Below are positions 4,433-18,487 of a stretch of 35,020 nucleotides of DNA, one piece after another (position 1 is the first letter of the stretch; every line of letters begins with the position of its first letter). This DNA is from a virus. The translations under genes and the position numbers were made by a program. Under the pieces are notes generated by a model that saw nothing but the letters and a program-made list of their open reading frames with translations, was not told the origin of the DNA and ran no database searches. The stretch spans positions 1-35,020 of IMG/VR virus record IMGVR_UViG_3300036980_000695; one strand, written 5' to 3'.

Positions 4433-4816
4433 TCACTTGGGTGCTGGTCCTGCTACTGCTTCTGCTGGCGGTGGTACGTCTTGCGTGGGGGTGCCCCCAT
4501 GTAGGCGTATCCACTGGGCGCTCGCCTTGTAGTGGCCCTGGGCCCGCTTGAACATGACGGAATCAGCGGGGCCGTAAGCGCCGCTTTTCATGCCAGCCTG
4601 CAATATGTCGCACCGCTGCTGCATCATGGCCGTGCTGCGCTTCAGGCCAATGGGGTAGCCAAACTCGTTCTTGCGTTCGGTGCTGGCGGGGGGCGCCACC
4701 ACGACGGGGGCAGCCACCACGACAGGCGGAGCCACCACCGCAATAGGTGGTGCAGGGGCGAAATCCACCACCGGGGTGGCCGCGTTAGCGGTGCTTTGCT
4801 TCTTTGCCTTTGCCAT
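4433..4816 (-). CDS. Ala/Pro/Val-rich protein, paralogue of 7209-7631
   Basis: A 127-residue protein starting at MAKAKKQ, with AAGGAG nine bases upstream; the frame runs further to 4960 without a start that fits. It has a basic N-terminus, a low-complexity Ala/Pro/Val linker (about residues 17-47), and then a domain with GYPIGL, a helix around CDILQAGMKSGAYGP, and YKASAQWI. The protein at 7209-7631 has the same order: MAK basic start, A/P/V linker, GYALGI, NVLAAGLAAGTYGQ and YTASVGWV. The two are clearly related by eye. An abundant small DNA-binding or virion-associated protein is possible, but nothing shows this. Confidence 0.65.
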   Translation of the reverse strand: MAKAKKQSTANAATPVVDFAPAPPIAVVAPPVVVAAPVVVAPPASTERKNEFGYPIGLKRSTAMMQQRCDILQAGMKSGAYGPADSVMFKRAQGHYKASAQWIRLHGGTPTQDVPPPAEAVAGPAPK

Positions 4817-4990
4817 AACAGATAACTCCTTGGACTGTGGTTGCTGACCTGTAACCCTTGTCGCAGTAGGCGTCTGGGGTTTGACGCCCCAGCCGTTTTG
4901 TGCCAGCGGGGGCTTACAATGCTTAACGGCATAGATGCAACAAAACTTTAGCGTGACCAAAAATAAATATGCGTTTTGATGTTCCCTGGC

Positions 4991-5923: not shown

Positions 5924-6319
5924 TCATTCTTGGGCCCTGTAAAAGGCGTCCATTTCGGCGTATACGTCGGCGTCATGTTCAACCTGGCGCTTGGCCTGGC
6001 GCTTGGTCATGCCTTCGCGTCGGTAGCGCTGTACCTCGCGCTTGGCGGCCTTTATCTCTTCGCGTTCGGCCTTGCGCTCCACCTCGGCGTGGGTGGGTAG
6101 GCCAAGGGTCAGCAGGTCGGCGGTATACAGGTAGTCTTTTGATGTGCTCACCTCTTTGTAACTGGCAACCTCGCCGGTCAGGCCACACCAGTGGTAGGTG
6201 AGCAAGATGCCGCTTTTGAGGCGGATATGCCGCGTGTCGCGGGCGTATGGGTCGTGCTTCGGGCCTACGGCGGTGTGGCGCGCGGCGCTCACCCAGGCAA
6301 TCTTTCCTATGTTGGTCAT
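5924..6319 (-). CDS. Hypothetical protein with basic coiled-coil C-terminus
   Basis: A 131-residue protein from MTNIGKIAWVS, preceded by AAAGGGG in the repeated ACACCAAAAAGGGG leader. Residues about 1-75 look like a strand-rich domain; residues about 76-125 form a long charged helix rich in Lys, Arg and Glu (VERKAEREEIKAAKREVQRY), likely a coiled coil. No family is recognised. Confidence 0.65.
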   Translation of the reverse strand: MTNIGKIAWVSAARHTAVGPKHDPYARDTRHIRLKSGILLTYHWCGLTGEVASYKEVSTSKDYLYTADLLTLGLPTHAEVERKAEREEIKAAKREVQRYRREGMTKRQAKRQVEHDADVYAEMDAFYRAQE

Positions 6320-6348
6320 TTCGTGGTCCCCTTTTTGGTGTAGTGTTC

Positions 6349-6600
6349 CTATCTGTTCGTGCCAAGCAGCAGCGGGTTCCCGTCCTTGAACTGCTCCAGC
6401 ACGGCTTCTAGTCTTTTGATGTGGGGTTCGTAAAATTGGCGGCATAATTCTTCGTCAGCGGCGTGTGCGTCGTTAATCGCCATTTGCAGCTTTTCTATCT
6501 CCTTCTCAACCAGGCGCTGGATCAGGAACCAGGTGCCAACATCGGTTGCGAGCTCAAACTTGACCTGGGGCAGCTTGGCTAGGTGTAGTTCCATCTTCAT
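6349..6600 (-). CDS. Small helical protein
   Basis: An 83-residue protein of mostly long helices (LIQRLVEKEIEKLQMAINDA; HIKRLEAVLEQF). Two starts compete: ATG 6600, three bases after AGGGAG, and ATG 6594, nine bases after it. The second has the more usual spacing, the first gives MKMEL. The leader carries the ACACCAAAAGGGAGC element. Function is not recognised. Confidence 0.6.
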   Translation of the reverse strand: MKMELHLAKLPQVKFELATDVGTWFLIQRLVEKEIEKLQMAINDAHAADEELCRQFYEPHIKRLEAVLEQFKDGNPLLLGTNR

Positions 6601-6628
6601 GTGCTCCCTTTTGGTGTAGTCGTTCCCT

Positions 6629-6838
6629 CTAGGCCCCCAGTGGGGGGCTTTGACCGCACGGTGCTTTCGTTGGCACTTCGTTTGCGCGAGCCCAAAACCA
6701 CCGTGGCCAAGCATCTGGCGCGAGCGCCGCGTTGAGGGGGTGCATGGCGGCCATGGCCTCGGCGCGAGTTTCGTATGGCCCAAGAACTTGAAGCGGTGTG
6801 CCACATGGGCTGGAGCAGAGCATGATTACGAACTGCAT
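6629..6838 (-). CDS. Small hypothetical protein
   Basis: A 69-residue protein from MQFVIMLCSSPCG, preceded by AAAGGGG five bases upstream. It has a strand, helix and strand pattern (VLGPYETRAEAMAAM), common in small phage proteins that follow a display such as 'YETRAEA'. Its last codons lie inside a GC hairpin (6632-6649, GCCCCC paired with GGGGGC) that may act on the RNA. An open frame continues upstream to 7495 but runs through the repeat block and is not a real extension. Confidence 0.55.
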   Translation of the reverse strand: MQFVIMLCSSPCGTPLQVLGPYETRAEAMAAMHPLNAALAPDAWPRWFWARANEVPTKAPCGQSPPLGA

Positions 6839-6873
6839 TTTGACCCCTTTGGTTGAGTTGCCACTAAGAAGCT

Positions 6874-6981
6874 GACTTTGAACTGGCCCTAGACTTTGAC
6901 GTGCCACCAGACTTTGAACTGGGCCGGGACTTTGAACTGCCACCAGACTTTGAACTGGAGGCGGACTTTGAACTGGGCGGC
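6874..6981. repeat. Six 18-bp direct repeats (iteron-like)
   Basis: GACTTTGA recurs at 6874, 6892, 6910, 6928, 6946 and 6964, a strict 18-base period. The first 12 positions, GACTTTGAACTG, are kept in five of six copies (the second reads GACTTTGACGTG) and the last six vary. The period and the conserved core resemble iterons bound by replication or partition proteins, but 18 is also a multiple of three, so a coding repeat is not excluded. Confidence 0.85.
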
Positions 6982-7023
6982 GACAGCAGCAGGGCGAGGG
7001 GAGCGCAGACGCGAGAGCCGACA

Positions 7024-7082
7024 CCTGCCTGGAAAATGCCTGCCGAAAAGATGCCTGCCTGGAAAATGCCTGCCGAAAACAT
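7024..7082. repeat. Two 30-bp direct repeats
   Basis: The unit CCTGCCTGGAAAATGCCTGC followed by CGAAAA occurs at 7024 and 7054, a 30-base period. Each unit is built of two similar 15-base halves (GCCTGG-AAAAT and GCCGAAAA-AT types). It lies 43 bases after the 18-bp array. Confidence 0.85.
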
Positions 7083-7182
7083 GCCCGATTTTGCGGAGGC
7101 GACGCCAGGGCCGACCCTGGGGAGGCCGCAGCCACGGAGGCGACAGGGGAAGCCGCCGGGCTGCGCAGGAGGGGGGAACGTG

Positions 7183-7208
7183 GGGCCCAGGGGCGACCCC
7201 AAGGGCCC
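7183..7208 (-). terminator. GC hairpin directly after the 7209-7631 gene
   Basis: Arms GGGCCC at 7183-7188 and 7203-7208 enclose a second stem GGGG-CGA-CCCC (7190-7200), with a one- to two-base bulge. On the minus strand it starts at the base after the stop codon. No T run follows, so it is either a Rho-type/processing barrier or an attenuator rather than a textbook terminator. Confidence 0.45.
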
Positions 7209-7631
7209 TTAGGCCGCCGGGGTGGCCTTTTTACGGGTGGGAGCGTGATGCACCGCCAGCCAGGCCTGCAGTTCCGGGGTGCTGGCACCAGGGGTGGCCG
7301 CCAGAGCCGCTGCAACCCAACCCACGGAGGCCGTGTAGTGCTGATAGGCACCGGAGTACGTGGTGCCAGGGGCCGCCGTACCGCTGCCGTTGGCCTGCCC
7401 GTAGGTGCCAGCGGCGAGGCCCGCTGCAAGAACGTTGGCCCGGTTAACCATGGCACCGATTGCCAGCGGGCCGGTGCGTGGGATGCCGAGAGCATAGCCG
7501 TAAGCGTTAAGCTTAACCTGGCGAGCCGGTGCAGGAGGCGGTGCTGGTGCGGCGATAACCGCTGGTACCGTGATAACCGCTGGTGCGGCGACCGCTGCGA
7601 CTGGTGCAGAAACCTTTGTGCGCTTTGCCAT
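7209..7631 (-). CDS. Ala/Pro/Val-rich protein, paralogue of 4433-4816
   Basis: A 140-residue protein with a basic start (MAKRTKVS), an Ala/Val/Pro linker (about residues 8-35), a GYALGIPRTG segment, a helix NRANVLAAGLAAGTYGQANG, a YTASVGWVAAALAATPG segment and a short basic tail (TRKKATPAA). It shares this order and several identical residues with 4433-4816, with an insert in the second half. AAGGGG lies seven bases before the ATG. It is the first gene after the long gene-free stretch, so a promoter for the whole minus-strand run probably lies just upstream. Function is unknown. Confidence 0.7.
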   Translation of the reverse strand: MAKRTKVSAPVAAVAAPAVITVPAVIAAPAPPPAPARQVKLNAYGYALGIPRTGPLAIGAMVNRANVLAAGLAAGTYGQANGSGTAAPGTTYSGAYQHYTASVGWVAAALAATPGASTPELQAWLAVHHAPTRKKATPAA

Positions 7632-8565
7632 TTTGGGACCCCTTGGTTGTGCGGCCCTGTGGCCGCTTGGTTGTTATATACAATGCAGGGTGCATGCCAG
7701 GGTGCTAAGTGCCCGTACTCACTACCAAAAGGGTGTAAACAAAGTAGTCACCCTAAAGTGCAATGGTTGCAGGGGCTTAAGCGCGCCGTAAGTGCCTGTA
7801 ATCACTAGGGGGTGGTGGCCAAGGTTTAGGCGCAAAAACGCCCAAGGCGGCCCATGCTGTTGTTATTGCAGGCAAAAGTGGGGGTGGCTAAAGGTACGGC
7901 AGTGGCCAAACCCTAACCAGTTGGCAAATGCGCAGTAATTACGGGTAGTTAGGGCGTGTACCGCAGGGGTGCTGCCAGGGCATGCCAGGGCGCGCATATG
8001 GCGACTGGCAGGGGGGAAAGGGCCGCCCAAGCGCCCCAACCGTCCGTCCCCTACCGTTTTCGTCCCCCTCAAGTGTCACCAGCATGGTCGGTACTAGTCG
8101 CCCGTAAAGTCCCTACCACGCACCCCAAAAACGGGGCGGAATAGGCCCTAGAAAGTCCCCAACCACGTCACCCCATGTAAGGGGGGGGGCAAAAGACCGC
8201 CCCAAGAAAGTCATGCCAGGATCCATTTAAGGGAATCCTGCAAAGGAGCCGTTACCTACCACCCCGCCATATTTTTTTTACTCACTCATTGTATATACGT
8301 TGGCGTCGTGGTCGGTGCGCGGGGGCTGGCGGCCAGCAGGCCAGCCAGCCTGCCGGTCGGTCGGCCGGGTCGGCCGGCCAGGTCGGCCGGCTTTAGGTGT
8401 TAGCAAAGTTCAGTGTCAGCTTATGTGGCCTGTCCCTACTCCCCCCGCCTCTGGCGGGTCGGTCGTGGGCCAGTGTGTTTGCCCCCCAATGGGGGGTGTT
8501 TTCGCGTGTTGGCGGGGGTCTGTCAAGGGCTAAATGGTTAGTCCTTGCTTGTCGCTGGCATAGGG
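7632..8565. other. Gene-free, repeat- and dyad-rich region
   Basis: About 930 bases without a convincing gene. Contents: two copies of AGTG-N8-CACT (7708-7723 and 7791-7806); CATGCCAGG three times (7693, 7981, 8212); two imperfect copies of AAAGTCCC-ACCACG-CACCCCA (8106-8127, 8152-8175); TATATACAATG at 7675-7685 and its exact inverse at 8287-8297; a G9 run near 8181; a T8 run (8272-8279); three GGTCGGCCGG units (8359-8390); and a CCCCCC-AAT-GGGGGG hairpin (8482-8496). This composition fits a replication origin, a control region or a non-coding RNA, but none is proven. Confidence 0.6.
8482..8501 (+). terminator. Possible plus-strand intrinsic terminator
   Basis: A perfect six-pair stem CCCCCC-AAT-GGGGGG (8482-8496) followed by TGTTTT on the plus strand. 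If it works, it would end a plus-strand transcript arising inside the gene-free region. No gene precedes it. Confidence 0.3.
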
Positions 8566-13566: not shown

Positions 13567-14619
13567 TCACCCTAGCTTTCCCGCCACGGATTCGGCAAAT
13601 CCCAGCAGTTGGCCCACGACGCGACCGCCCGCGTGCCCGCGCAACGACTCGGCGCCGTTGGCCACTACGTGTCGGCTCGGTGGCTCGGCCAGTTGCTGGG
13701 CCAGTTCGGTTGGCCCGCTCACTGCCGTGCAGTTGACACCGTCCTGCATGGTGTCGTCGTGGTCCAGCAGCCAGTCGCGGGCCACAATAAGGTGGCAGCC
13801 TGCCTCCCACGCCTCCAGAAAGGTGTACTGCGTCCCACCACCGTCGCCAGAAATCTTGCTTAGGTCCACCATATAGCGGTAGCCCTTGGCGATCTCGACG
13901 GCGGCTCCCCAATGCCGTGGAAACTGGCCGCAATAGTGCCTGTCCCACGTGGGGTCCACCTTGAAAACCTTATGGTGGCAGTACAGGCGGTTCATTGCCC
14001 CGTAGATGTCGACGGCAAACTGGCCCTGGCCCGCGCCGTCCAGCTCGGCGTTGGCACCAGCTATCACGTGGGTTTGCTTGTCCCAGTCGAGGCGGCTCAG
14101 GGCGCAGGCATTCTGCCGCTGGAAGTAGCGGGGCTGTTCGTCGCCGCCAACAAGGTCGCCAGACGTCACGTATGGGTGCGGCACAAAGGCGGCCTCGATG
14201 CCGTGGCGGTGCAGGGCCGGAACATTCGCCTTGCGGATAGCCACCACCCCGACCGACCGCTGCTTGGCCACGGTCAACAGCCCGTCGCGCATTTCGGTCG
14301 GGTCGTGTACCACAAGCAGCCCCCCTCGCTTCAGCACGGCGGCCAATGCCGTCGTGTGGTGCTTGTCGGCGCAGGTGACGATGTTCACCTCGGCGCCGGC
14401 GGCAGCGGCGCTGATGCCGGCCATCCCTATAAGGCGCGACTGTAGGCCGCCAGACCACGGCTTATAGACCTTGGCTGTCGCCGCACCGAGGCGGTATAGG
14501 TTCACGGCGAAACCGGCCTGCGCTAAGGCGCGGCACAGGTGAACGGTGTACGACACCCAGCCCCCGTAAACGGGCTTCGCCAGATACCACAGGTTGACAG
14601 TGCCCTTGGGCTTATTCAT
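13567..14619 (-). CDS. GT-B glycosyltransferase (GT1/GT4-like)
   Basis: A 350-residue protein with GT-B features: a glycine-rich acceptor-side loop near the start (KPVYGGWVSYTVHLCRAL), a central domain junction with SRLDWDKQTH, and a nucleotide-sugar-binding C-terminal half with GGGTQYTFLEAWEAGCHLIV, where the two Glu of the E-x7-E type helix and the EAWEAG motif are expected. It would move a sugar from an NDP-sugar to an acceptor. GGAGA lies before the ATG. It is the last gene of the operon with the dioxygenase and the GT-A enzyme, so modified DNA bases, or a sugar already on them, are the likely acceptor; a surface glycan is the alternative. Confidence 0.8.
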   Translation of the reverse strand: MNKPKGTVNLWYLAKPVYGGWVSYTVHLCRALAQAGFAVNLYRLGAATAKVYKPWSGGLQSRLIGMAGISAAAAGAEVNIVTCADKHHTTALAAVLKRGGLLVVHDPTEMRDGLLTVAKQRSVGVVAIRKANVPALHRHGIEAAFVPHPYVTSGDLVGGDEQPRYFQRQNACALSRLDWDKQTHVIAGANAELDGAGQGQFAVDIYGAMNRLYCHHKVFKVDPTWDRHYCGQFPRHWGAAVEIAKGYRYMVDLSKISGDGGGTQYTFLEAWEAGCHLIVARDWLLDHDDTMQDGVNCTAVSGPTELAQQLAEPPSRHVVANGAESLRGHAGGRVVGQLLGFAESVAGKLG

Positions 14620-14649
14620 CGTTCGTTTCTCCAGTGGTATTGCCGGCGT

Positions 14650-14898
14650 CTACGTTTTTTTACGGCCAGGTCCATGCGGCCTCGGCTTCTTGCGTGCAAA
14701 GGTGGGCGGCTTTTCAATCGGCGTGATGTTGGGTGGCGTGCGGTGCAGAACCACCCAGTCGGTGGCGCGGCGGTCGAAGATGGTCATCTCGCCCATGACC
14801 TCGCCCGTGCGCACGATAAGATAGCACCACCGGGTCGGCCCCCAGGCCTCGCGGCGCAGCCAACGGGCGCCCGTCTGTATGGCGTGTTCATACGTCAC
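14650..14898 (-). CDS. Small protein with DUF2829/Tad2-like pattern
   Basis: An 82-residue protein from a GTG start with GGAGG about ten bases upstream, overlapping the radical SAM gene by 11 bases. The order YEHAIQTGARWLRREAWG, a strand-rich middle, then DRRATDWVVL mirrors the small phage domain of DUF2829 (EA-I-G-x-RR-W ... A-(D/T)-DWEV), the family that includes the Thoeris inhibitor Tad2. The C-terminus is basic and proline-rich (KPPTFARKKPRPHGPGRKK), unlike Tad2, and could bind DNA. The call rests on motifs alone. Confidence 0.55.
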   Translation of the reverse strand: MTYEHAIQTGARWLRREAWGPTRWCYLIVRTGEVMGEMTIFDRRATDWVVLHRTPPNITPIEKPPTFARKKPRPHGPGRKKT

Positions 14899-15868
14899 AG
14901 GCTGGCTTCCTCCAGTTGCGTGGCGTGGCCGTAGCAACTACGTCCCGCACGGTGGCGGCGTGCTCTGCCGTCGGCTGTGGGAGCTTGGGCAGCAGCCCTG
15001 CGCGAGCGCCTGCCCCCTTGTTGCAGCCCGAGCACGGCGTGAATGCCCGCTGCTTGGCCTGGAGGTAATGGCGGGCCGCCGTGAAGCGAGTGCCCCACCA
15101 GATTTCGTCGAGCGTCTCGCGCATGACGTTGCCGCAAACGTACTCGTGGCCCCAGTCCATGCAACAGATGTTGACGTTGCCGTCGTAGCAGACCGACAGC
15201 TCTCGGAACGGGTTGGTGCAGGTCTTGGCCAGCGGCTCGCCTATCATCGTGCCGTTATTCCCGGCATGGTTGTTGATCACCCGGCTGCCAACCTCGCCGT
15301 CGCGGGCGCCGAGGTCGTCCATGATGATGACGGACTTTTGCAGCTGTCCCTTGCGGTGATGGTTTGCCCACGGGCTGATACCGACCGGTGCCAGGTCGTT
15401 GTAGAAGTCGAGCACCCGCACCTTGTCTGCCGGTAGGGCGCGTATCATCGCCTGCAATTTGGTGCGCTCTGGCTCGTACGTGTCGACGATCAGAAAGTCC
15501 ACGTCTGGCGGGCCATACAGCAGCTCGCTCACGCGGGCGTCCATGCCCGCCTGGGTCTTCATCAGCGCGCGCCCGTTGGTGGTCACCTGGATCTGGGCCT
15601 TCGGCAGGTAGGCGCGGAACACGGCGATCAGCTCGGGGTACCGTGGGTTTGCAAGCGGCTCGCCGTGCATGGCGAACTCGTAGCGTGCGTCTGGCGCCAG
15701 GGCGGCGCACTCCATCGCCGTGCGCTCGGCTATGGCCATGGTCATAAACTTGAAGCCGCCCGGCCCGCTGCGGATGCCATTGAGCCCACAAAAGCTACAC
15801 AGTCGGTTGCAGCCCTCGGCGAGCTCTATCTGTACGGACCACGGTTTCCCAACCTGCTCTGTCTTCAA
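14888..15868 (-). CDS. Radical SAM enzyme with SPASM-type C-terminus
   Basis: A 326-residue protein from a TTG start in a TTGA overlap with the GT-A gene, with GGAGGG eight bases upstream. The cluster motif is C20-x3-C24-x2-C27 (ELAEGCNRLCSFCGLNG), followed by HGEP at about 68-71, the S-adenosylmethionine-binding turn. The C-terminal part has C217, C227, C235/C236, C245, C279 and C282 (CTNPFRELSVCYDG, ICCMDW, YVCGNV, PCSGC), a SPASM-like auxiliary iron-sulfur site. Such enzymes do radical chemistry such as methylation, C-C bond formation or peptide maturation. Its place between two glycosyltransferases suggests it acts on a modified base or sugar. Confidence 0.85.
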   Translation of the reverse strand: MKTEQVGKPWSVQIELAEGCNRLCSFCGLNGIRSGPGGFKFMTMAIAERTAMECAALAPDARYEFAMHGEPLANPRYPELIAVFRAYLPKAQIQVTTNGRALMKTQAGMDARVSELLYGPPDVDFLIVDTYEPERTKLQAMIRALPADKVRVLDFYNDLAPVGISPWANHHRKGQLQKSVIIMDDLGARDGEVGSRVINNHAGNNGTMIGEPLAKTCTNPFRELSVCYDGNVNICCMDWGHEYVCGNVMRETLDEIWWGTRFTAARHYLQAKQRAFTPCSGCNKGAGARAGLLPKLPQPTAEHAATVRDVVATATPRNWRKPACDV

Positions 15869-16665
15869 AGCTTGTACCCTCCTGCTTGTAGTGCCTTCTT
15901 GTACTGGACACGCGGACGCAGGGTGGTCGGCACGCCAGACTGTGGCTTGGCGTCGGCCGCGGCGACGAGGGTAACAAAGTCGGGGTGGAGGGCCCGTAGG
16001 CTCCGCAAGCAACGCTCGTAAAGCGCCTGGTCCCGGTACTGACTGCACCCCCCCGGCGCCTGGCTTTTCTGGTCGTGCATAAAGAGGTTGGAAACCACAT
16101 TGGGGTATCCGCACCGCAACACTTGCAGGGTGAAGTCGATGTCCTCGACAACCTCGCACTCATCTCTCCACTGTGCCTGCGTCAAAAACTCGACGTCAGC
16201 ACGGCGAAACCCGTGCAGCACGCACTGCTTACAGCCGACGTCATAGGGGCGCTGCTTCGTCTGCGCCATGAATCGCATGGCAATTCCACACAGCAGATTG
16301 CCAGCATCCAGCATGGCGTCCAGGTGGGCGAACATGGCGACCGTTTCGTCTGGCCCCTGCTTCGCGGCTTTGCCAGCGGCATCGCGGTACAGGAAACGCA
16401 CGTCGTCGTCGACAAAGTATAGGCGTTCCTGCCCCTTGGTTTGCCCCCAGACCCAGCGGCGCTTGCCGGTCAGGCGCATCGGGTATGGCTCTGGCCAATA
16501 GGTGGCTGTGGCCAGGGTGGGGCTCGTTGCCATGTGCTGCTCCACCTCCTCCGGGGGGCAAACGATGGCCACACGGCTCCGCACGGTTTCGTGCAGGGCG
16601 TGGTAGGTCTGCTGTCTGCCGACCCGCCCCTTGGTAAGAATGAAAATGTCAGGGGCAGCTGTCAC
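15865..16665 (-). CDS. GT-A glycosyltransferase, TET/JBP-associated type
   Basis: A 266-residue protein from a GTG start in a GTGA overlap with the dioxygenase gene. It has an N-terminal ILTKGRVGRQQTYHAL segment, the metal/nucleotide-sugar motif YFVDDDVRF (D86-D88), a central strand region (CGIAMRF, CVLHGFRR), and EDIDFTLQVLRCGYPN (E174, D175). This arrangement is that of the TET/JBP-associated glycosyltransferases described in phages and kinetoplastids, which glycosylate hydroxymethylated pyrimidines (the base J glucosyltransferase is one). The direct neighbour is a TET/JBP dioxygenase, which supports the assignment. The sugar is unknown. Confidence 0.82.
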   Translation of the reverse strand: MTAAPDIFILTKGRVGRQQTYHALHETVRSRVAIVCPPEEVEQHMATSPTLATATYWPEPYPMRLTGKRRWVWGQTKGQERLYFVDDDVRFLYRDAAGKAAKQGPDETVAMFAHLDAMLDAGNLLCGIAMRFMAQTKQRPYDVGCKQCVLHGFRRADVEFLTQAQWRDECEVVEDIDFTLQVLRCGYPNVVSNLFMHDQKSQAPGGCSQYRDQALYERCLRSLRALHPDFVTLVAAADAKPQSGVPTTLRPRVQYKKALQAGGYKL

Positions 16666-17564
16666 GGCAGCTTCTCGGACGGGCGGTTTTTGGCACGTTC
16701 AAGTTCTTCTTCGGCGGTGCCACACTCGAGCATCCCCTTGCGGAAGTAGTGGACAAGCGTGCATCGCTGCGCGTTCTTCGTCATGGGGGTGATGAACGTA
16801 TTGCCGTGTAGGTCGGTCGCGCCGTTGAAAATTATCACGTCGCCCGTATCCAGCGGCACGCCGATCCTGTAGGCGGGCAGCACAAGCACGCCCCCCTTCA
16901 CCTTGCCCTCGCGCACCAGCAGCATGGCGCTCTTGCCGTTGGCAATGTTTCGCCCGTCGCGGTGGTAGGCGGTGCGGTAGTTTTTGTTCACCGTCACGGT
17001 GGTGTACACCGTGTCGGGGATTATAAAATCCTTGCTGCAGTCGGTCGCCAACTCGTTCAGGGCGTCCCAGCTTGGGGTTTCGTAGGCGCGATGCACCTCG
17101 TTCACGGCCTTAATCAGCGGCGTGCAGGCGGCCCAAACCTCGGGGTGTTGCTCGTTAAAGGCGCAGCGGCGGCAGTATGGGATGCGCGGGTAGCGGTCGT
17201 AGAAGCCCATCACCCCACTGGAGATCTGGTCCTGCCGCGGCATCCGCATCGTGTTGCTGTAGGTGCCGTCCAGCTTGCGCTCGTGGATACGCGGCGCAGC
17301 CGCCGCCGTCGACCTGTTGTCGGTCAACGGGCGCCAGTCTTTTATCCCAGCGCGCCAAGCCTGGGCGATAAGCTCCAGCGGGACCCCGCGCTTGACGAGT
17401 GTCAGCACGGTTTCCCCGGTATCAAGGATCACCCGACAGCTGTGGGTCAACAGCTGGTCGTAGTGTGTGTCGTCGGCAAAGACACCCTCCAAATGCGCCA
17501 CGTCCAACGGCGGTCCGTTGTGGACAACATGGGGCAGGTCAACTATTGGCAGCGTCCTTTTCAT
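16662..17564 (-). CDS. TET/JBP-family 2-oxoglutarate/Fe(II) dioxygenase
   Basis: A 300-residue protein with the double-stranded beta-helix core of TET/JBP enzymes: YTTVTVNKNYRTAYHRDG with the H-x-D iron ligands (H201, D203), GGVLVLPAYRIGVPLDTGDV, the distal iron His in DLHGNT (H253), and the 2-oxoglutarate-binding Arg in QRCTLVHYFR (R267). The core occupies residues about 180-280; the first 170 residues are less conserved and hold a CRRC pair. Family members hydroxylate the 5-methyl of 5-methylcytosine or thymine in DNA. GGAG lies five bases before the ATG, which overlaps the ParB-like gene by 26 bases. Confidence 0.88.
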   Translation of the reverse strand: MKRTLPIVDLPHVVHNGPPLDVAHLEGVFADDTHYDQLLTHSCRVILDTGETVLTLVKRGVPLELIAQAWRAGIKDWRPLTDNRSTAAAAPRIHERKLDGTYSNTMRMPRQDQISSGVMGFYDRYPRIPYCRRCAFNEQHPEVWAACTPLIKAVNEVHRAYETPSWDALNELATDCSKDFIIPDTVYTTVTVNKNYRTAYHRDGRNIANGKSAMLLVREGKVKGGVLVLPAYRIGVPLDTGDVIIFNGATDLHGNTFITPMTKNAQRCTLVHYFRKGMLECGTAEEELERAKNRPSEKLP

Positions 17565-18300
17565 GTGCGCTCCTCACGGCACGAGCCACCGTGTCGGTAA
17601 TGTTGTCGGTCTTGTAGGCGTGGCCAAGCGCCGTACACAGGGCAATGAACTCCTTGTGGACTTCTGCCGCAAAGAACAACTGCACCATCTTGACGTGGGC
17701 CGTGTTGCCCCCCGCCTGGGTGAGGTCGCCCAGGGCAGACGGCAGCGGCACAAGCGGGACTGGCCCAGCCGAGCCAGCCGCGTTGGACTCGTCGGTGTCC
17801 ATGCCCCCAACGTCCAGCACGTCCTCGGCTTCCGTGTCGACGTAATATTCTTCGGTAAAGGCGGCTATGTCGATCTCGGGGAAGCGGAAGCTTTCCATCA
17901 GCTCCTCGGCCTGTATGTCGCTCCCCTCAAGGAATTCATACAGCCCGTCCTTCTCCATCTTGCCGTACTGGCTGGTCAGGCTTAGCACCTTGCGCTTGGC
18001 CTCGTTTGCATCAGCCGCCTCGACGAAGCTAACGGGCAGGGCAGGGCACGAGTAGCCCTCGTCGGAAATCATGCGCCGCACCACGCGACACCGCTGGTGG
18101 CCGTTGAGGATGTAGACCTTGTCGCCATTGCGCCATACGCTCACTGGCTCGCTAAAGCCCAGGTCAAGGATCATCCCCTTCATGCGCGTGTAGTCGCTGT
18201 TGCTCAGGCTTTTCAGGTTTCCCTGAAAGTGAATCAGTGACTCGACGGGCAGGTAAGCGGCGCCTTCACACGTCACGCGGATCGAGTTGCTCATAGTCAT
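17539..18300 (-). CDS. ParB-like (ParB/sulfiredoxin N-terminal domain) protein
   Basis: A 253-residue protein with a ParB/Srx domain at residues about 15-100: LPVESLIHFQGNLK, LGFSEPVSVW, YILNGHQRCRVV (GHQR 67-70), the nucleotide-binding motif. The middle is acidic and low in complexity (about 150-185), and the C-terminal 50 residues form a helical domain (VQLFFAAEVHKEFIAL, then a TDTVARAV helix). Proteins of this shape are frequent next to phage terminases and DNA-modification genes; some have CTP/ATP-dependent or nuclease activity. It may guide the modification enzymes or act in packaging. A second ATG at 18294 is possible. Confidence 0.78.
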   Translation of the reverse strand: MTMSNSIRVTCEGAAYLPVESLIHFQGNLKSLSNSDYTRMKGMILDLGFSEPVSVWRNGDKVYILNGHQRCRVVRRMISDEGYSCPALPVSFVEAADANEAKRKVLSLTSQYGKMEKDGLYEFLEGSDIQAEELMESFRFPEIDIAAFTEEYYVDTEAEDVLDVGGMDTDESNAAGSAGPVPLVPLPSALGDLTQAGGNTAHVKMVQLFFAAEVHKEFIALCTALGHAYKTDNITDTVARAVRSAHEKDAANS

Positions 18301-18487
18301 TAGTCTCCAGCTCTTGTGGTCTACTGCACGGCGGTTCGAACGCAGCCCCAGCCATTCTCAACCAGGCGCTAAGGTTCCCCTGGCAGTAGCGGCGGGCCTT
18401 GTCTTGCAAGGCTTTCAGCTCATGCCGGTTAACCTTGACGAGAATCGCCTTGGTTTTAACGATCGATGTGTCTAGATGTCCGCGCAT
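18266..18487 (-). CDS. Ribbon-helix-helix (CopG/MobC-like) protein
   Basis: A 73-residue protein with the pattern of a ribbon-helix-helix DNA-binding protein: a strand KTKAILVKVNRH, a helix ELKALQDKARRYC, a turn and a second helix NLSAWLRMAGAAF. This resembles CopG and relaxosome accessory proteins. It is first in the modification operon and next to the divergent control region, so autoregulation and control of the early/late switch are plausible. No clear ribosome-binding site precedes the ATG at 18487; the message may be leaderless or start further in. Confidence 0.6.
   Translation of the reverse strand: MRGHLDTSIVKTKAILVKVNRHELKALQDKARRYCQGNLSAWLRMAGAAFEPPCSRPQELETNDYEQLDPRDV

Follow-up and report, generated by a model that had tools for sequence, protein, structure and literature searches.

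In kinetoplastids, base J is formed by JBP1 and JBP2 together with a glucosyltransferase. Phage TET/JBP hypermodification clusters are said to have been described by Iyer et al. in 2013 and Burke et al. in 2021, and those with biochemically shown activity use 5-methylcytosine (5mC) together with a linked C5-methyltransferase. A further account is that of Pyle et al. 2024, cited in PMC13216743. The DNA of phage M6 carries 5-NedU, which is derived from 5-hydroxymethyldeoxyuridine (PMC6449724), and a ParB-TET-transferase-kinase set in Rhodococcus phage Tonitrus has been proposed as a thymidine hypermodification system (PMC11955845). Phage clusters joining TET to a TET-associated glycosyltransferase (TAGT), the elaboration of TET-made hydroxymethylpyrimidines, and the proposal of ParB-TET thymidine hypermodification are already known. 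The present analysis concerns a leftward operon of this kind, running from about position 18487 to 13567 of the virus record IMGVR_UViG_3300036980_000695. The complete IMG/VR contig of 35,020 bases was studied and is called the window below; it is linear without end repeats, so it may be an incomplete fragment.

Judged from its protein families and from the comparison of related loci, the balance tips slightly towards this operon encoding a post-replicative thymine-hypermodification pathway of four predicted steps, built on a ParB-TET pair and completed by two glycosyltransferases and a radical SAM enzyme.

The operon, its dioxygenase and the ParB-TET pair

All genes of the operon lie on the minus strand and overlap or abut, in the order small open reading frame, ParB-like protein, TET/JBP dioxygenase, TAGT, radical SAM/SPASM protein, small open reading frame and GT-B-fold glycosyltransferase. 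The five genes named in a first-pass annotation were recovered in place by Pfam and PHROG searches and, for the GT-B protein, by a structural model, and their families bear out its description of a DNA hypermodification operon in which a TET/JBP enzyme is joined by two glycosyltransferases and a radical SAM enzyme. The same annotation had the operon ending at the terminase. In fact the terminase adjoins the start of the operon; the packaging genes, which encode the terminase large subunit, portal, protease and capsid, run the opposite way, rightward from 18521.

The TET/JBP 2-oxoglutarate (2OG)/Fe(II) dioxygenase (16662-17564, minus strand, 300 amino acids) matches PF12851 with 69.7 bits (E 2.3e-19) against a curated cut-off of 34.9, and scores 71.4 bits in the genome search. 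Its catalytic residues, H201-x-D203, H253 and R267, which comprise the Fe(II) triad and the 2OG arginine, do not vary across an alignment that adds six distant phage homologues, and the protein also has a distant sequence match to TET2. The residue at H+5, which we take to be the position of TET2 Asn1387, is Asn in the window protein and Asp, Ser or Asn in other phage TETs. Its predicted reaction is hydroxylation of thymine in DNA at the 5-methyl group.

Single-sequence scans of IMG/VR returned no relatives of the window TET or TAGT. TET relatives were gathered with one alignment built from marine and environmental phages and another built from actinophages, and about 240 related TET loci were compared; the counts given here are not independent, since the contigs are mostly fragments and many of the loci are related to one another. 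A ParB-family gene lies directly upstream of TET, on the same strand, in 143 of the 151 loci that extend 500 bases or more upstream, and within 3 kb of TET in 220 of the 238 loci collected, the exceptions being mostly large-genome phages with longer TET proteins. The same order occurs in Gordonia phage Wooper, Mycobacterium phage Serendipitous, Arthrobacter phage Altadena and Pelagibacter phage HTVC112P. The ParB-like protein is a near-obligate partner of TET, and ParB-TET forms the core pair of these loci; measurement of this pairing across about 240 loci is apparently new.

The ParB-like protein of the window (17539-18300, minus strand, 253 amino acids) matches the PHROG ParB families phrog_723 and phrog_620 and falls below the Pfam threshold, giving no Pfam match, while the family profile matches ParB/Noc/Spo0J structures. 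In its model, a nucleotide-binding N domain of ParB/sulfiredoxin type, similar to the ParB CTPase in ParB-CDP structures and to the serine kinase SerK, is joined by a disordered linker to a conserved helical segment at the C-terminus; the protein probably binds nucleotides. The reading of ParB as a nuclease has nothing behind it except an old annotation label. An apparent ParB-TET fusion, a single open frame at 6287-7825 of locus L127, was rejected, because the C-terminal end of its ParB part seems to be frameshifted and the genes are separate in closely related contigs. Five TET relatives were also seen in bacterial genome bins (L293-L297, from Parcubacteria, Betaproteobacteria, Pirellulales, Actinomadura and Gammaproteobacteria), possibly as prophages or phage contigs.

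Hundreds of loci have these same neighbours, so the gene set of the operon is not a chance assembly. The first-pass annotation had considered the combination possibly new. TET-TAGT and ParB-TET clusters had already been described, but the full five-gene set was found in the window only, among all loci collected; partial sets comprise ParB-TET-TAGT-radical SAM (L256-L259), ParB-TET-GT-B-radical SAM (L185-L187) and TET-TAGT-GT-B (L181).

Glycosyltransferases and the radical SAM protein

The window TAGT (15865-16665, minus strand, 266 amino acids, GTG start) matches PF20691, the TET/JBP-associated glycosyltransferase family expected for it, with 48.1 bits (E 1.7e-12, cut-off 27.5), and phrog_842 with an E-value of 1.4e-32; the PF20691 hit and that of TET to PF12851 give the outcome that the first-pass annotation had named as its own check. 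TAGT is a known DNA-base glycosyltransferase family with the GT-A fold, and in phages T2 and T6 it attaches a second glucose after a GT-B enzyme has put the first in place (PMC13216743). The two kinds of isolate phage nearest to the window TAGT carry a pyrimidine hydroxymethylase of the deoxyuridine monophosphate (dUMP) type next door.

The GT-B-fold protein (13567-14619, minus strand, 350 amino acids) has no match to a Pfam or PHROG family. Its AlphaFold2 model (predicted local distance difference test score 94.1) consists of two Rossmann-like domains and matches GT-B structures with Z scores of 22-27 over 296-329 residues. The top matches are GT4 enzymes and T4 DNA alpha-glucosyltransferase, at Z 26-27, with hydroxymethyluracil-DNA complexes of the latter among the top ties; the Pfam and PHROG searches place the window protein outside the sequence family of the T4 enzyme, the fold being what the two have in common. 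By its own sequence, 80 relatives of the GT-B protein were found, 58 of them beside a TET and 13 beside an M6-type dUMP hydroxymethylase, with none having both. The search seeds came from TET loci, so the TET count is biased upward, a bias that leaves untouched the observation that most relatives without TET carry the dUMP-type enzyme. This hydroxymethylase, of thymidylate-synthase type, is 45% identical over its length to that of M6 and has Asn where the T4 deoxycytidine monophosphate (dCMP) hydroxymethylase has Asp. GT-B, radical SAM and hydroxymethylase genes form an overlapping or abutting run in six loci (L207, L216, L224, L227, L238 and L239), and a run in another order in L201. A direct search found no relatives of the window GT-B or radical SAM protein among isolate phages. 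The GT-B protein belongs to a widespread, unnamed phage family absent from Pfam, and the replacement of TET by a dUMP hydroxymethylase beside this one family is apparently a new observation.

GT-B and TAGT each often occur without the other, and therefore each can probably act on a hydroxymethyl group. They occur together in the window and in L180, L181 and L228, where the simplest reading would be a disaccharide. Glycosylation of a hydroxymethyl base is, from the families present, very likely.

The radical SAM/SPASM protein (14888-15868, minus strand, about 326 amino acids) matches PF04055 and PF13186 above cut-off, and its TTG start at 15868 is preceded by a GGAGG box. The cysteines of the C-x3-C-x2-C motif and the SPASM domain (C25, C29, C32, C222, C240, C241, C284 and C287) are invariant in 26 relatives, and the family profile matches BtrN with an E-value of 3e-33, far ahead of the next structure. 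Of 34 radical SAM loci, 30 include a glycosyltransferase nearby, against a single one with kinase or transferase genes, suggesting a sugar rather than the bare base as substrate; we would put the chance that a sugar is indeed the substrate at about even. A BtrN-like radical SAM family seemingly tied to glycosylation, like a GT-B family absent from Pfam, is apparently new. In L263-L268, radical SAM and TAGT genes are followed by two ParB-like genes, and the records searched contain no TET or thymidylate-synthase-type enzyme. In L071 and L270-L273 the radical SAM gene directly follows TET, with TAGT later; these proteins are only about 23-27% identical to that of the window.

The operon also holds two small open reading frames on the minus strand, one of 73 amino acids at its head (18266-18487), which found no family in Pfam and PHROG searches, and one of 82 amino acids between the radical SAM and GT-B genes (14650-14898), which overlaps the radical SAM stop and has no Pfam family. 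Elsewhere on the minus strand of the window, positions 56-439 encode an AlpA/excisionase-like regulator and 582-1613 an exonuclease VIII-like PD-(D/E)XK nuclease, which hint at a temperate or recombining phage. Two further minus-strand genes, at 7209-7631 and 4433-4960, encode small proteins with alanine/proline-rich N-termini that are homologous to each other over a core of some 80 residues (E 2e-7) and have no Pfam family.

The modified base and rival readings

The first-pass annotation reported neither a C5-methyltransferase nor a thymidylate hydroxymethylase in the window, and left the base open between cytosine and thymine. Both absences hold: the window record, which may be incomplete, has no C5-methyltransferase hit, and it has no thymidylate-synthase-type hydroxymethylase (PF00303). 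Of about 147 TET-bearing records, 9 carry the C5-methyltransferase family PF00145, and none of the 11 isolate genomes with related TETs does, in a search that recovers the expected matches in control genomes. Whole-record searches found PF00303 in none of 47 TET-bearing records; the sole TET-bearing record with it, that of Caulobacter phage Cr30, has no ParB gene paired with TET.

The commonest alternative cassette behind ParB-TET consists of a P-loop kinase (PF18751) and an amino-acid:DNA transferase (PF18724). The kinase is annotated as a '5-hmU DNA kinase' in phage Wooper, and the profile of the transferase also matches gp51 of phage M6. The kinase profile found no match among the M6 cluster proteins examined, so the role of the kinase is taken from Pfam and phage annotation. 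Neither profile matches near the window TET, whereas both are common in its relatives. On the ParB-TET core, glycosyltransferases occur in 131 loci, kinase/transferase genes in 91 and both in 8 (Fisher p ~3e-32, for loci that are not independent), and well-supported branches of the TET tree force at least 16 changes between the two routes. The glycosyltransferase and kinase/transferase routes are alternatives on one ParB-TET core. Because C5-methyltransferases are few, the alternative cassettes are of thymidine type, the two routes are alternatives on one core, and the GT-B family stands beside either TET or an M6-type dUMP hydroxymethylase, thymine is the best-supported substrate. The choice is narrowed in its favour, and thymine is probably the modified base.

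Several observations weigh against thymine, besides the dependence among loci. The Asn at H+5 of the window TET, read from the alignment, does not appear to separate thymine from 5mC. Burke et al. 2021 reportedly found that some metagenomic phage TETs oxidise 5mC produced by a linked methyltransferase, and for this phage a host methyltransferase could be the source of 5mC. The hydroxymethylase of L269, a TET-less locus with radical SAM and TAGT genes, is of the cytosine type, with Asp at the diagnostic position; by this residue the locus is the one exception to the thymine pattern, and the TAGT and radical SAM families may therefore not be strictly tied to thymine. The combination of amino-acid:DNA transferase, TAGT, radical SAM family and dCMP-type (Asp) hydroxymethylase without TET was seen in both L269 and L276. 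The T-even TAGTs also act on modified cytosine, namely glucosyl-hydroxymethylcytosine (PMC13216743). Together these points would fit a pathway in which TET oxidises 5mC, methylated by the host or by a phage enzyme encoded outside the contig, to 5-hydroxymethylcytosine, which GT-B and TAGT then glycosylate and the radical SAM enzyme modifies. The few relatives that do carry PF00145, some of them within a few kb of TET (e.g. G009, G072 and G074), and the possible incompleteness of the record agree with such a scheme, but the absence of PF00145 from 11 of 11 isolate genomes and from about 138 of 147 TET-bearing records, the dUMP hydroxymethylases of the TET-less GT-B relatives, and the 5hmU-type (5-hydroxymethyluracil) cassettes fed by related ParB-TET pairs make a cytosine pathway unlikely, at perhaps one chance in a few.

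The substrates of the later enzymes can likewise be read in other ways. The radical SAM protein might act on the base or the hydroxymethyl carbon, for example by the kind of C-C rearrangement that forms 5-NedU, and the glycosyltransferases would then act later or independently of it. Such enzymes reportedly take part in some thymidine hypermodifications (Lee et al. 2022), and the gene order of L071 and L270-L273, where radical SAM comes ahead of the glycosyltransferase, would suit this. The close association of the family with glycosyltransferases, its best structural relative being a sugar-alcohol dehydrogenase, and the lack of a match among the M6 gene-cluster proteins examined leave a base-directed role doubtful, if slightly less so than the cytosine pathway. 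It is very improbable that the glycosyltransferases and radical SAM protein modify something other than DNA, such as host surface glycans or capsid protein, with ParB-TET alone acting on DNA. The GT4 enzymes among the top GT-B matches do serve small molecules and cell-wall glycans, but T4 DNA alpha-glucosyltransferase ties with them, the genes overlap tightly with TET in the window, 71 of the 80 GT-B relatives adjoin TET or a pyrimidine hydroxymethylase, and TAGT belongs to a DNA-base glycosyltransferase family (PMC13216743).

Proposed pathway and known systems

In the favoured thymine pathway, the ParB-like protein would bind DNA and position or license TET, which would hydroxylate thymine in phage DNA to 5-hydroxymethyluracil; the family of this enzyme is established and its substrate predicted. 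Acting on thymine already in DNA, it would therefore need no methyltransferase. GT-B and/or TAGT would then glycosylate the hydroxymethyl group, most simply by building a disaccharide in the T-even order, GT-B before TAGT, and the BtrN-like radical SAM/SPASM enzyme may oxidise or otherwise alter a sugar hydroxyl. The end result would be a relative of base J, a 5-hydroxymethyluracil that is glycosylated and altered further, and it would shield phage DNA from nucleases. The fully specified version, a phage base-J-like pathway with a ParB-licensed TET, a GT-B and TAGT disaccharide on 5-hydroxymethyluracil, and radical SAM oxidation yielding an undescribed nucleobase, is put forward tentatively, its chances being somewhat below even. 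Decorated with sugars, the DNA would probably be hidden from bacterial defences.

The GT-B family, pairing with TET or with a dUMP hydroxymethylase and never with both, makes the question of cytosine or thymine directly testable for hundreds of phage TETs. If the thymine pathway is right, base-J-like chemistry would be widespread in phages, ParB-TET would act as a thymine-hydroxylating module of two genes whose finishing enzymes can be exchanged, and the unnamed GT-B and BtrN-like radical SAM families would serve DNA sugars. Such enzymes would be useful for writing and reading 5hmU, and may be targets of bacterial modification-dependent defences.

Compared with described phage TET/JBP clusters, the operon has the same TET/JBP enzyme with TAGT, radical SAM and other tailoring genes, and the same hydroxymethylpyrimidine start; it differs in lacking a C5-methyltransferase in the window, in partners that point to thymine and in a GT-B protein without a Pfam model. 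Base J shares the proposed order, TET/JBP hydroxylation of thymine in DNA and then glycosylation, whereas the present system is viral, has two glycosyltransferases of other families and a putative radical SAM step, and its thymine activity is a prediction. With phages M6, ViI and phi W-14 (PMC6449724) and the Tonitrus ParB-TET-aGPT-PPlase2-kinase operon (PMC11955845), 5hmU would be the common intermediate. The ParB-TET order is identical to that of Tonitrus and Gordonia phage Wooper, and the relatives of the window GT-B use the M6-type hydroxymethylase, in whose place the window, without PF00303, has TET; glycosyltransferases and a BtrN-like enzyme stand here instead of the kinase and amino-acid:DNA transferase of the M6 and Tonitrus systems. 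T-even phages likewise combine a GT-B enzyme with TAGT, yielding gentiobiosyl-hydroxymethylcytosine in T6, and the window model ties T4 alpha-glucosyltransferase at Z 26 without a match to its sequence family; they make the hydroxymethylcytosine nucleotide via dCMP hydroxymethylase, whereas the window TET would act on DNA, probably on thymine. BtrN, the radical SAM dehydrogenase of butirosin biosynthesis, has the same radical SAM and SPASM-type domains, but acts on a free aminocyclitol, while the window family is found in DNA-modification operons.

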